From Tolumonas lignilytica (GTDB lineage Bacteria; Pseudomonadota; Gammaproteobacteria; Enterobacterales; Aeromonadaceae): DNA of 64,000 nt. Positions 10,715 to 14,663 of this stretch are shown here, one piece after another (the first letter of the stretch is position 1; each line of letters starts with the position of its first letter). Below the pieces are notes generated by a model. That model worked only from the letters and a program-made list of their open reading frames with translations. It did no database searches and was not told the DNA's origin. The DNA lies in contig NZ_AZUK01000001.1 of NCBI RefSeq assembly GCF_000527035.1, positions 248,001-312,000 of the forward strand, written 5' to 3'. The position numbers and the translations under genes are program-made.

Positions 10715-11365
10715 ATGTTTGGAATTCACGATCTCACGCTATTCATCATCTCTGGTTTTTTACTCAACGTAATGCCTGGCCCAGACTCATTGTTGATCAT
10801 GTCCAAAAGTGCCTCCCACGGATGGCGCGCAGGTAGTATCGCCTCATTAGGGATTGGCTCTGGTGTGTTCGTGCATGTATTGGCCGCAGCCTTAGGTTTA
10901 TCTGCAATCTTGGCCAGCTCCTCCACGGCTTTTACCGTTGTAAAATATATCGGTGCCGCCTACCTTGCTTATATCGGCGTTGTAGCCTTGCTTCAGAAAT
11001 CAAAAACTAACTCAGCTGCAGCATCACAAGAAAAATCATTACTCACGGCCCCTCTTTCCATGCGGGCAGTGTATTGGCAAGGTTTTTTAAGCAATGCGTT
11101 AAATCCTAAAGTAGCCCTGTTTTTCCTGGCTTTTGTTCCGCAATTTATCAATCACGATGCCTCCAGCAAAGCGTTGGCATTCATCATTCTTGGTCTGATT
11201 TTTAATTTTAACAGTATGTTGTGGTGTCATTTTCTGGCCGTTTCTACCTCTTTGGCCAGTAAACGCCTCAAAGTCAGTCACACCGTTAGTTTTTGGCTGA
11301 ATAAGATGATTGGCACACTGTTTATTGCGCTCGGCATGAAATTAGCCTTAGCAGCAAAAAACTAG
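10715..11365 (+). CDS. LysE/RhtB-family amino acid exporter
   Basis: A 216-residue inner-membrane protein with about six hydrophobic segments. The N-terminal block FLLNVMPGPDSLLIMSKSASHGWRAG contains the PGPD signature of the LysE/RhtB superfamily, whose members export amino acids or homoserine lactones; the substrate cannot be told. GGGAG lies 7 nt before the ATG. It is closely similar to the protein at 45680-46321 in the same window (both start MFGIHDL), so the two are paralogues. Followed by a hairpin at 11390-11409. Confidence 0.88.
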   Translation: MFGIHDLTLFIISGFLLNVMPGPDSLLIMSKSASHGWRAGSIASLGIGSGVFVHVLAAALGLSAILASSSTAFTVVKYIGAAYLAYIGVVALLQKSKTNSAAASQEKSLLTAPLSMRAVYWQGFLSNALNPKVALFFLAFVPQFINHDASSKALAFIILGLIFNFNSMLWCHFLAVSTSLASKRLKVSHTVSFWLNKMIGTLFIALGMKLALAAKN

Positions 11366-11389
11366 CCTAACGAATATGAGCTTATTTTT

Positions 11390-11409
11390 GCTATCATTTC
11401 TGTGATAGC
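11390..11409 (+). terminator. Possible terminator hairpin
   Basis: GCTATCA-TTTCTG-TGATAGC forms a perfect 7-bp stem but is followed only by TTGAAAG. On either strand it is a weak terminator at best. It separates the LysE gene from the secDF locus. Confidence 0.35.
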
Positions 11410-11433
11410 TTGAAAGTAGTTAACGGGGTTTAG

Positions 11434-11847
11434 TTGCGGTATTTCATGGATAAATTCAAGTGGTTCGTCATCGCGTTCGTCCTCGGACTGACGCTGTGCA
11501 CCCATGCGTTTTATCCGGCAAAAATCGACTTGTCGTCATCCGTATCGCCAATCACCCCCCAGCAACAACTGGCTGATAATCTCGGCACATTTAAATTTAT
11601 TACCAGTAATCAGCAATTACGGTTACGCCTGAGTTCTGTCATCAATGATGATGACGAATCAAAACCGGTACTGTTTGATTTAGTTAAAACCTGGGGCGGC
11701 GATGTCATCGCACTGCTGCTGGCCGGGTTAATTCTACTCATCACCCCGCTATTACAAAAATACAATGCCAGTGCGCTAGCCTGTTTTCCGGCTGCTTACT
11801 GGAACCTTAAAAATCTCCAGTTCCGCTTTTCTCATTCCAGAAACTAA
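11434..11847 (+). CDS. Small exported membrane protein, candidate secDF regulator
   Basis: 137 residues with no family I can name. The chain opens with a Sec-type signal or anchor (about residues 5-25 of this frame, ending in THAFYPA), has a soluble middle (about 27-88), a strong second membrane segment (GGDVIALLLAGLILLITPLL, about 88-107) and a roughly 30-residue C-terminal tail. The start is a TTG with GGGG 6 nt upstream; an ATG at 11446 is also possible. It sits 73 nt before a second-copy type secD that has no visible SD. This position matches VemP, the Vibrio arrest peptide that senses Sec activity and controls secDF2. No sequence identity to VemP is claimed; the role is inference. Confidence 0.6.
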   Translation: MRYFMDKFKWFVIAFVLGLTLCTHAFYPAKIDLSSSVSPITPQQQLADNLGTFKFITSNQQLRLRLSSVINDDDESKPVLFDLVKTWGGDVIALLLAGLILLITPLLQKYNASALACFPAAYWNLKNLQFRFSHSRN

Positions 11848-11920
11848 TTTTTTCACTGTACGTCTATAAACGCTCTGTGCCTGATTTCACGTCGGCGTAG
11901 CGATTATTTCATCTCAAAAT

Positions 11921-13735
11921 ATGAATCAGACTATGATGAAAAAAAATGAAAGTCTCATCAAAAACCGGATGAGCAAATGGCAATATGCCCTTTTAGCGTT
12001 GATATTTATCACTTTTAGCTTTTATTCACTGCCCACCTTCTTTGGCGAACGACCAGCCTTGGGCCTGCATTACGAACAGGCATGGGCTGGCAACGATAAA
12101 AATATTCTGCAGGAAAATCAGATCTCACCGGAAACGGTGATTCAATCGGCAGATAAAACATTACTGGTTTTTTCGTCACAAGCCGATCAGCAACGAGCCA
12201 AACAACTACTAGAACTGAATGGTTATGATAGTAGTCAACTCACTCTCGAATTTTTCTCTGACTCACCGGGTTGGATGCAATCGCTGGGTGCCGCGCCGAT
12301 CCGGTTAGGACTCGATCTCCGCGGTGGTTCTCAGCTGTTAATGGCAGTGGATACCGACTTTATCGTTAAAAATCACACGCGTAATCTTGCCGATACACTA
12401 CGCACTGAGTTTAAAAAAGAGAACTTACGCGGCACAACAATCACCGCCAATATCGATGAAGTGCAGATCACGTTACCAACCACACAGGAAATCAGCCCTT
12501 GGCTTAAGATTATCCGTCAGGAAACCACAGGCCAGACTAACCCTTGGATTTCACAACGCGAAGATAACCGAATAACGCTGCGGTTGAGCGAAACGGAGCG
12601 CAATACTCTGATCAACAATGGCGTGACGCAGAATCTGTCGATCCTGAAAAAGCGCATCCATGAACTTGGGATCGTCGAAGCTTCCGTGCAGCGCCAAGGG
12701 CAAAATGGTATCCGGATCGAACTGCCGGGTGTTCACAATCCGAAACAAGCCAAAGATGTGATTGGTGCCACCGCATCATTAGCTTTTTATCAGGTGAGTC
12801 ATACAGGAAGTTACCAGCTACAGGATAAATCGGCTCGTAACATCAACATGATGCGTGAACCGGTGTTGAGTGGTGAACATATTGTCGATGCGCGCGCCAG
12901 TGCCGATGAAATGGGCCGTCCACAAGTGAGCATTGTGCTGGATAAAACCGGTGGCGATAAAATGAATTGGTTCAGCAGAAATAATGTCGGTCAGGCTATG
13001 TCGACGGTGTTTACTGAATATAAAAATGCGCCTGATGGTTCATTAAAGGCCAACAGTCAGGTGATTAATGTTGCCACCATTCAAACTACATTGGGTAACC
13101 AATTCCGTATTACCGGGCTTGATAGTCTGAGCGAAGCACAGGAGCTGTCGATGTTGTTGCGAGCCGGTGCATTGACTGCGCCACTCAAGATACTCGAAGA
13201 ACGCTCGATTGGCCCGACGTTAGGTATGGAAAATATTAAAGCCGGATTCAGTGCCTTAGCCTTCGGTATGGTCGGCATGATGCTGTTTATGCTGGTGTGG
13301 TATCGCCGCTTTGGCTGGGTCGCCATCGTCGCGCTGATCACGAACTTACTGATGCAAGTTGGCTTGTTAGCCCTCTTACCCGGAGCAGTATTAACGCTGC
13401 CCGGCATTGCGGGGTTAGTGCTTACGGTGGGGATGGCCGTTGACACGAATGTGCTGATTTTTGAGCGGATTAAAGATCGTCTGCGCGAAGGTGGCAGTCT
13501 GGCGAATGCCATCGATTTTGGTTATCGCTCGGCATTTGTCACCATTTTTGACGCCAATATTACCACGCTGATCAGCGCCATTGTGCTCTACAGCATTGGT
13601 TCAGGTCCTCTGCAAGGCTTTGCTATTACGCTGATCCTAGGTCTTATTTCCAGCATGATCACCGGTGTCTGGGGCACCAGAGCGATTATCAATCCTATCT
13701 GGGGAAGAAGCTCCCTGAAACTGCTGCGGGTATAA
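11921..13735 (+). CDS. secD: Protein translocase subunit SecD (second-copy type)
   Basis: Works with SecF to pull exported proteins across the inner membrane using the ion gradient. 604 residues: TM1 near the N-terminus, periplasmic P1 domain with GLDLRGGSQLLMAVD, then five C-terminal TM segments. The conserved TM4 Asp is in VGMAVDTNVLIFERIKD. There is no yajC, tgt or queA nearby, so this is probably not the main secDF locus; a paralogous secDF2 as in Vibrio is likely. None of the possible starts (11921, 11933, 11969) has an SD; the ATG at 11969 aligns reasonably with E. coli. AATCAG at the 11921 start can pair with CTGATT at 11881-11886. secF follows after one base. Confidence 0.9.
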   Translation: MNQTMMKKNESLIKNRMSKWQYALLALIFITFSFYSLPTFFGERPALGLHYEQAWAGNDKNILQENQISPETVIQSADKTLLVFSSQADQQRAKQLLELNGYDSSQLTLEFFSDSPGWMQSLGAAPIRLGLDLRGGSQLLMAVDTDFIVKNHTRNLADTLRTEFKKENLRGTTITANIDEVQITLPTTQEISPWLKIIRQETTGQTNPWISQREDNRITLRLSETERNTLINNGVTQNLSILKKRIHELGIVEASVQRQGQNGIRIELPGVHNPKQAKDVIGATASLAFYQVSHTGSYQLQDKSARNINMMREPVLSGEHIVDARASADEMGRPQVSIVLDKTGGDKMNWFSRNNVGQAMSTVFTEYKNAPDGSLKANSQVINVATIQTTLGNQFRITGLDSLSEAQELSMLLRAGALTAPLKILEERSIGPTLGMENIKAGFSALAFGMVGMMLFMLVWYRRFGWVAIVALITNLLMQVGLLALLPGAVLTLPGIAGLVLTVGMAVDTNVLIFERIKDRLREGGSLANAIDFGYRSAFVTIFDANITTLISAIVLYSIGSGPLQGFAITLILGLISSMITGVWGTRAIINPIWGRSSLKLLRV

Positions 13736-13736
13736 C

Positions 13737-14663
13737 ATGATGAATCTATTTCGTACTTTAACGCTAACCCATTACCGTTATGCCGGGCTGATGCTCTCTG
13801 TCATTCTAACCCTGCTTTCCGTCATTATTCTTTCTATCTACGAGCTCCACCTTGGTCTTGATTTTACCGGTGGTGTATTGCTGGAACTTAAAATTCAGAC
13901 CTTAAAAAGTGCCACCGAGCTAAATACCATTCTTAATTCATCATTAGCGAATTTTGTGCAGTTGCAATACAACGGCATTCCTGGTGAGTGGCTGGTGAAA
14001 TTACCGCCGCAGGAAAATGGCTTTGTTGCCACTGAATTGGTGAAGCAAATCAGTGCTGATTTAAATCTGCCGGTTGAATTAAGTAAAACGACCATTGTCG
14101 GGCCTCAGGTCGGCGCTGATCTCTTTGAGCAAGGGTTATTAGCGCTCTTAGCGGCTTCAGTCGCGATCTCGGTTTATCTGGCATTCCGGTTTGAATGGCG
14201 ACAAGCGATTGGGGTATTACTGTCTGTTTTACATGATGCGGTAATTGCTTTGGGTTTGCTGGCATGGATGCAAATCGAGTTTGATCTGAATGTCATCGCT
14301 GGTCTGATGGCCGTCATCGGTTATTCGCTCAATGACAGTATCGTGATCTCAGATCGATTACGCGACTTACTGCGCAGCCCTACGGCGACAGACATTTATC
14401 AATGTTCAAACAAGGCAATCAAGGCCACCTTCAGCCGAACTTTGATCACCTCAGGAACCACCTTATTTACCGTCAGTGCATTACTGTTATTTGGTGGCGA
14501 AGCGCTGTTTTCTTTTTCTTTTACACTGTTTATCGGGGTATTAGTGGGTACCGTCTCATCGATTACCATCGCATCAACGGTGCAGGAATTGTTGGGGTTA
14601 AGCGCCGAAGCATACCAAAAGAAAGAAGTGATTAACGATGACGGAATAACGGAATCACTCTGA
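13737..14663 (+). CDS. secF: Protein translocase subunit SecF (second-copy type)
   Basis: Partner of SecD in the SecDF complex. 308 residues with six TM segments, the LGLDFTGGVLLEL block after TM1, and the RND signature VIGYSLNDSIVISDRLRD. It begins one nucleotide after the secD stop and is followed by a strong terminator. Divergence of this pair from canonical SecDF is my impression from the sequences and was not measured. Confidence 0.92.
   Translation: MMNLFRTLTLTHYRYAGLMLSVILTLLSVIILSIYELHLGLDFTGGVLLELKIQTLKSATELNTILNSSLANFVQLQYNGIPGEWLVKLPPQENGFVATELVKQISADLNLPVELSKTTIVGPQVGADLFEQGLLALLAASVAISVYLAFRFEWRQAIGVLLSVLHDAVIALGLLAWMQIEFDLNVIAGLMAVIGYSLNDSIVISDRLRDLLRSPTATDIYQCSNKAIKATFSRTLITSGTTLFTVSALLLFGGEALFSFSFTLFIGVLVGTVSSITIASTVQELLGLSAEAYQKKEVINDDGITESL

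Follow-up and report, generated by a model that had tools for sequence, protein, structure and literature searches.

The secD2-secF2 operon of Tolumonas lignilytica is preceded by a short open reading frame, and the question raised by this locus is whether the ORF encodes a sensor of protein export that controls the operon by ribosome arrest, as VemP does in Vibrio. We analysed a stretch of 64,000 nucleotides, here called the window (contig NZ_AZUK01000001.1, positions 248,001 to 312,000). A preliminary description of this DNA had proposed that the ORF is a candidate arrest peptide upstream of a second secDF, and either a non-homologous or a diverged counterpart of VemP. VemP, its motif and its RNA switch have already been described (PMC5449182, PMC7897499, PMC11470409, PMC10987492). 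The coordinates of the features that matter for the argument are collected in Table 1.

Table 1. Features of the upstream ORF (uORF), of the secD2-secF2 operon and of the spacer between them in the window, with one example of an nqrE-linked uORF.
Feature	Position	Strand	Basis or remark
Upstream ORF, probable diverged VemP relative	11434..11847	+	TTG 11434 or in-frame ATG 11446; 137 or 133 aa
N-terminal signal or anchor segment MDKFKWFVIAFVLGLTLCTHAFYPAK, end approximate	11446..11523	+	hydropathy, alignment
Second transmembrane segment (TM2), residues 85-103 of the 133-aa form	11698..11754	+	hydropathy
C-terminal tail	11776..11844	+	register with VemP
5' arm of predicted start-hiding helix	11848..11865	+	begins right after the uORF stop codon
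3' arm of predicted start-hiding helix	11928..11944	+	covers ATG 11933 and most of ATG 11936
secD2	11921..13735	+	starts 11921, 11933 or 11936
secF2	13737..14663	+	profile match
nqrE-linked uORF, example	L080:2965-3462		nqrE after it

The upstream ORF is a real coding gene, with a dS of 1.34 and a dN of 0.18 between the window and T. osonensis, and it is conserved in both Tolumonas and Aeromonas. Sequence and hydropathy confirm the architecture given in the preliminary description, i.e. 137 codons with an N-terminal hydrophobic segment, a second hydrophobic segment and a 30-residue tail, ending 73 nt before ATG 11921. The best 19-residue Kyte-Doolittle window of the second segment reaches 2.37 (codons 89-107 of 137), and by its hydropathy the N-terminus has the character of a Sec signal, as in VemP. 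No Pfam or NCBIfam family matches the ORF at E 1, the best PDB sequence matches are unrelated enzymes at E 1, and none of 358 pattern matches on viral contigs is a relative. The best Pfam match over a 15-row alignment, HEPN (5 rows, best E 0.027), was taken as chance. A scan of 11300-12000 for consensus promoters found none; in Tolumonas (11380-11434 in the window) and at several Aeromonas loci, a TGTGATAGCTTG-like stretch lies just 5' of the uORF and is perhaps a promoter element.

The second secDF was borne out as well: the SecD of the window lies over the cut-off of NCBIfam NF009545 (732.2 vs 728 bits), and the genome holds another SecD (G000:C1:464938-466782) that is under the SecD2 cut-off. 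Like VemP, the uORF is located directly before a secD2-secF2 pair of the PRK12933 (NF009545) type. The starts at 11933 and 11936 align with the Aeromonas start MRKK, and the sequence ahead of 11921, 11933 or 11936 contains no Shine-Dalgarno-like run, as had been stated. In a SecD tree of 49 rows (10 Aeromonadaceae SecD2, 22 secD2 rows from other families, 2 further copies from family f10 and 15 SecD1), the Aeromonadaceae SecD2 proteins group with the VemP-associated SecD2 proteins and are split from SecD1 at 100/100; SecD1 is the sole outgroup and the tree shows only the side on which the SecD2 of the window falls. The stem of the Aeromonadaceae SecD2 proteins is long (1.05).

How widely does a VemP-type uORF accompany this kind of secD2? 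A secD2-type match over the cut-off is present in 73 of 295 genomes, and, outside the Aeromonadaceae but within the order, the upstream side was read at 50 secD2-type loci. At 42 of these, a uORF carries R...[WA][KR]..N..[YF] near its end; as this selection motif demands R and N, the counts of these two residues in the 42 VemP rows hold by construction. The uORF of the Vibrio-type locus L022 matches the VemP chain in PDB entry 5nwy with E 8.7e-59. Tails from family f6 and some loci of family f22 read RISGWKVSNLQYRFSQQAA, LRLGGWKDANLRYRFSQQAA and HRIAGWKESNILYRFISQADA. Eight loci fall outside the motif set (L020, L099, L108-L110 of family f16, and L111-L113, which are second copies in family f10). 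A 2024 paper states that the vemP-secD2/F2 operon is specifically conserved among Vibrio (PMC11470409); going beyond that statement, our loci suggest that the operon occurs in several families of the order, and the Aeromonadaceae loci suggest a strongly changed branch of it.

Two side observations belong to this survey. The VemP-motif uORFs before secD2 span eight families (f2, f6, f7, f10, f12, f13, f17 and f22; loci L017-L046, L095-L107 and L114). The uORFs before secD2 in L108, L109 and L110 have a VemP-like middle and a degenerate arrest motif, and are perhaps another rewritten branch.

Because position and profile-profile evidence are taken together, we regard homology of the aeromonad uORF and VemP as very probable, the ORF of the window being apparently a strongly diverged relative. 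Aligned profile to profile, the two sets give E 2e-4 and a score of 31.7, with at most 15.4 in 60 column shuffles, and the alignment spans the part from the signal to TM2. The last 40 residues score 18.9 (at most 10.3 in 100 shuffles) and the last 60 residues 19.0 (at most 16.2 in shuffles); the E value of 1.6e-5 that hhalign gives for the last 30 residues is no clean test, 1/100 and 3/300 column shuffles having scored an impossible ~130. The tails lead in the same direction: among the 42 VemP tails the window tail matches L017 best, with one in 1000 shuffled tails as good, and for the Aeromonas tail of L005 against the same 42 the figure is 14 in 1000. Ungapped alignment places WNLKNLQFRFS of the window over WKVSNLQYRFS of family f6, and the tails of the window, a genus g5 locus and an Aeromonas locus are PAAYWNLKNLQFRFSHSRN, FWNRKHLQYRFTHTAA and HRHRLQRQHLQYRFSQSHLA, respectively. 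Run on the 42 VemP rows, the aeromonad profile has L017 and L026 at the top (E 0.018 and 0.027 for 1000 sequences). The VemP profile ranks the uORF first among 701 ORFs of the window (E 0.061) and a tail-only VemP profile ranks it fourth, and in a VemP profile search of the whole genome the uORF is absent even at E 10. The idea of a VemP counterpart is thus upheld in part. The place of the ORF before secD2, the SecD tree, the profile-profile alignment and the in-register tails make "diverged" a better term than "non-homologous", but of the five motif residues the ORF has lost two, the genome search misses it and 15 Aeromonas loci gave no sign of the RNA switch.

In the register with VemP (VemP residue numbering from PMC5449182), W143 corresponds to W119 of the window, N147 to N123, Y150 to F126 and Q156 to R132, and R139 and K144 correspond to P115 and N120. 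Measured against RxxxWKxxNxxY, the window sequence PAAYWNLKNLQF keeps the W, the N and the aromatic residue, and R and K are gone. None of the 41 distinct secD2-linked aeromonad rows has kept R139 or K144, and W143 is replaced in 36; the W is kept in 5 rows, the N in 3, the aromatic residue in 41 and the RF that follows it in 41. W143A is arrest-defective in Vibrio VemP (PMC11470409), and PMC10987492 reports that rows with a missing or partial VemP motif were removed.

The other change is TM2. With a KD19 threshold of >=1.6, it is present in 43/44 secD2-linked aeromonad rows and 10/11 nqrE-linked rows (see below), and in 2/42 VemP rows. In the secD2-linked set it ends 30-39 residues ahead of the C-terminus, a narrow spacing, and with an N-in signal its orientation would be N-out/C-in. 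According to PMC10987492, a secretion signal tolerates different distances to the arrest site, but a type I (N-out/C-in) TM segment has to lie at the right one. This rule and the narrow spacing together suggest that insertion of TM2 may be part of sensing.

The phylogenetic distribution of the uORF follows that of secD2. Homologues ahead of secD2 are found in Tolumonas, Aeromonas and a third genus; relatives occur in 16/61 genomes, the genome of the window counted, with a SecD2-like frame downstream at all 16 loci. In the genomes checked, uORF and secD2 come, go or decay together. Five of 11 Tolumonas genomes have secD2 (four over the cut-off and G004 at 718 bits) and the same five have the uORF, which in G001 is cut by a contig end to its last 21 codons; the six without secD2, two of them at least 99% complete and four at 63-87%, give no uORF match. 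Among 37 Aeromonas genomes, 36 have a uORF match. In the remaining one, G334, there is no uORF match and no secD2, only the canonical secD. One of the 36, G030 (C57, L083), is counted through fragments: uORF, secD2 and secF2 are all fragmented there, a joint decay of the three. Seven genomes of genus g2 from the same family yield neither a secD2 over the cut-off nor a uORF match.

Conservation within the ORF gives a divided answer for the tail, which the preliminary description had named as a feature to check. In both secD2-linked Aeromonas sets (0.074 and 0.064) and in the nqrE-linked set (0.109), pN reaches its minimum over the last 15 columns, so that among Aeromonas species the tail does show the smallest nonsynonymous rate; ranked by pN/pS, the minimum falls on the block preceding these columns in one Aeromonas group and on TM2 in the nqrE-linked set. 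The Tolumonas sequences show no such pattern, their tail being no more conserved than the rest of the ORF. In the 15-row alignment, the middle of the protein forms a conserved block with the consensus DDGxxKFVGSHQxHLLRLE, and TM2 holds an invariant L, L and G.

If translation of the uORF controls secD2, the spacer RNA may carry the switch. In the window the predicted helix pairs 11848-11855 with 11937-11944, 11857-11860 with 11932-11935 and 11862-11865 with 11928-11931; in folds of four lengths, 14 of the 16 pairs have a probability of at least 0.9 and the other two 0.57-0.71. The secD2 start region is unpaired at 0.13, with 5/500 spacer shuffles as low. When a ribosome covers the RNA through 11853, the edge that corresponds to R132 in the P site in the Q156 register, this value rises to 0.39, and 2/500 shuffles gain as much. 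The overall fold is only modestly above chance (z -1.71, 14/200 shuffles as good), and 192/2000 spacer shuffles contain some 8-base complement of 11921-11960. The preliminary description had pointed to another pairing. The hexamers CTGATT (11881-11886) and AATCAG (11924-11929) are present and complementary as described, but in folds of four lengths they pair with a probability of 0.00, and CTGATT turns up in 72/2000 spacer shuffles; this pairing was rejected.

The RNA behaviour of the window is shared by its close Tolumonas relatives L003 and L008 and is weak and flank-dependent in T. osonensis; in genus g5, L016 has a strong switch (0.18 to 0.44, 0/60 shuffles) and L014 has none. These runs cover 21 of the 41 aeromonad loci with a secD2 start (45 were considered, 4 without a start). 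The 15 Aeromonas loci computed show no clear effect of stall-coupled opening, and RNAalifold on two Aeromonas groups gives hairpins with no evident link to the stall site. As a control, a like model was applied to 35 of the 42 VemP loci (the other 7 lack an ATG; for L096 and L098 the chosen start is apparently wrong). A stall-dependent gain matched by at most 1/25 shuffles was found in 17 of these 35, including L022 (0.23 to 0.50) and L023, and the 18 without a strong gain include most of family f2, with long spacers. Since only 17/35 VemP loci show the gain, its absence in Aeromonas is weak evidence against a switch.

Aeromonas also offers a view of the uORF in a second setting. In 22/37 genomes, a second and diverged uORF match lies elsewhere, and its profile matches Aeromonas only (100 genera, 295 genomes). 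Eleven of the 22 loci were examined (L077-L082, L089-L092 and L094), and all 11 have an nqrE-like frame after the uORF; the two frames tested pass the TIGR01940 cut-off. In 16 Aeromonas genomes searched with TIGR01940, the five with an extra nqrE are the five with the second copy. The frame upstream, which we take to be RecJ, ends less than 300 nt from the uORF in 8/11 loci and about 2 kb from it in 3. The tails keep HLQ(Y/F)RFCH in 10/11 rows and RF in 11/11, the comparison with VemP profiles is not significant (E 0.067), and the spacers of the 6 of 11 loci computed show no consistent RNA switch. Since SecD2 is not a neighbour at these loci, the copy can be taken, at the level of sequence, as support for a regulatory tail. 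In the genus of the window, G004 and G007 have an NqrE that passes the TIGR01940 cut-off, and G000 and G002 have just lower-scoring relatives.

In total, we suggest, with a probability of roughly 0.64, that the ORF is the Aeromonadaceae VemP, i.e. a nascent-chain export sensor for secD2-secF2 that includes both arrest and control of secD2. The in silico basis comprises coding, synteny, the SecD2 side of the tree, remote VemP similarity, the conserved tail, the narrow spacing from TM2 to the end and the helix in the window; stalling, release by force and regulation are what we infer for the aeromonad uORF. In this proposal, (i) the ribosome would stall near the end of the ORF with R132 in the P site and N133 in the A site, by the VemP register, (ii) the stalled ribosome would cover the U-run after the stop codon, break the helix and free the secD2 start, (iii) the Sec machinery would move the periplasmic loop and insert TM2, and the resulting pull on the chain would release the arrest, and (iv) once the arrest is released the ribosome would terminate, the helix would close and secD2F2 would fall silent. 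A further step is possible but doubtful: the Aeromonadaceae VemP may have been converted from monitoring export to monitoring membrane insertion, with a new arrest core (H/N-L-Q-Y/F-R-F) on which the TM segment, some 30 residues ahead of the stall site, would pull; in Aeromonas, a duplicated copy of this device may have been recruited to control a solo nqrE. If this is true, the nqrE device would be an arrest peptide of the Sec-monitor type that targets a respiratory membrane protein.

Other readings of the same data have to be weighed against this one. A descendant of VemP could have given up arrest and become a small two-TM membrane partner of SecD2F2. The loss of R139 and K144 in 41/41 distinct rows and of W143 in 36/41, the acquired TM2 with its invariant L, L and G in 15 rows, the conserved block in the middle of the protein and the RNA switch that was not seen in the 15 Aeromonas loci all speak for such a partner. 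We nevertheless consider it unlikely: in the Aeromonas sets pN is lowest at the C-terminal end and not in the membrane part (by pN/pS, the neighbouring or the TM2 block is slightly lower in 2/3 sets), RF is kept in 41/41 rows and also in the 11/11 nqrE paralogues, where SecD2 is not a neighbour, and the window keeps the W, the N and the aromatic residue together with the predicted start-hiding helix.

The ORF could also be an arrest peptide without relation to VemP, which arose independently in the same place and has a tail that resembles VemP by convergence. Repeated emergence of arrest peptides ahead of sec genes is assumed in PMC10987492, and the single-profile searches are not significant; but VemP-motif uORFs occupy this very place before SecD2 across the order and the similarity extends beyond the tail into the part from the signal to TM2, which makes convergence improbable. 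Any ribosome at the stop codon would transiently melt the helix, and on that ground one can conceive of a leader that acts by coupling only, its translation or the end of it opening the spacer with no arrest or sensing; as such a leader would need neither a conserved C-terminus nor a signal sequence nor a narrow TM2 spacing, we give it hardly any weight.

For the VemP-type sensor that we favour, what appears to be new, as judged from sequence comparison, is a rewritten VemP with a built-in TM segment in the Aeromonadaceae. The main text of PMC10987492 mentions neither Aeromonas nor Tolumonas nor nqr, and among the matches listed in literature searches on VemP with Aeromonas or Shewanella, on nqrE leader or arrest peptides and on secD2/secDF2 in Aeromonas or Tolumonas, no title or abstract deals with such uORFs. 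If the Aeromonadaceae branch still stalls ribosomes, an arrest motif can be rewritten while its position and target stay the same, and a TM segment can act as a sensor. With the nqrE-linked copy, a move of such sensors to genes beyond the Sec system can be put to the test.

Three kinds of known systems provide the frame for comparison. ApdA, ApdP and the RQH family are likewise encoded by small ORFs with a localisation signal and a conserved C-terminus before secDF; they carry RAPP-like motifs, of which the window tail PAAYWNLKNLQFRFSHSRN has none. MifM, the YidC monitor of Bacillus, offers a parallel for TM2, as PMC10987492 describes an optimal spacing between a type I (N-out/C-in) TM segment and the site of arrest, and the spacing of TM2, with the orientation that we propose, is narrow; MifM differs in that it precedes yidC2 and has its segment at the N-terminus, and we claim no sequence relation between the two. 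Closest is VemP, the secretion monitor of secD2F2 in Vibrio alginolyticus. Unlike VemP, the aeromonad uORF does not keep R139 and K144, nearly all Aeromonas rows are also without W143 and N147, a TM segment lies 30-39 residues from the C-terminus, and the sequence similarity is remote only. Like VemP, it stands before a secD2F2 of the same family, and the window shares with VemP an N-terminal signal-like segment, an in-register tail with W, N and aromatic residue (the aromatic one is followed by 7 residues in the window and most often by 8 among the VemP rows), and an RNA predicted to hide the start of secD2.
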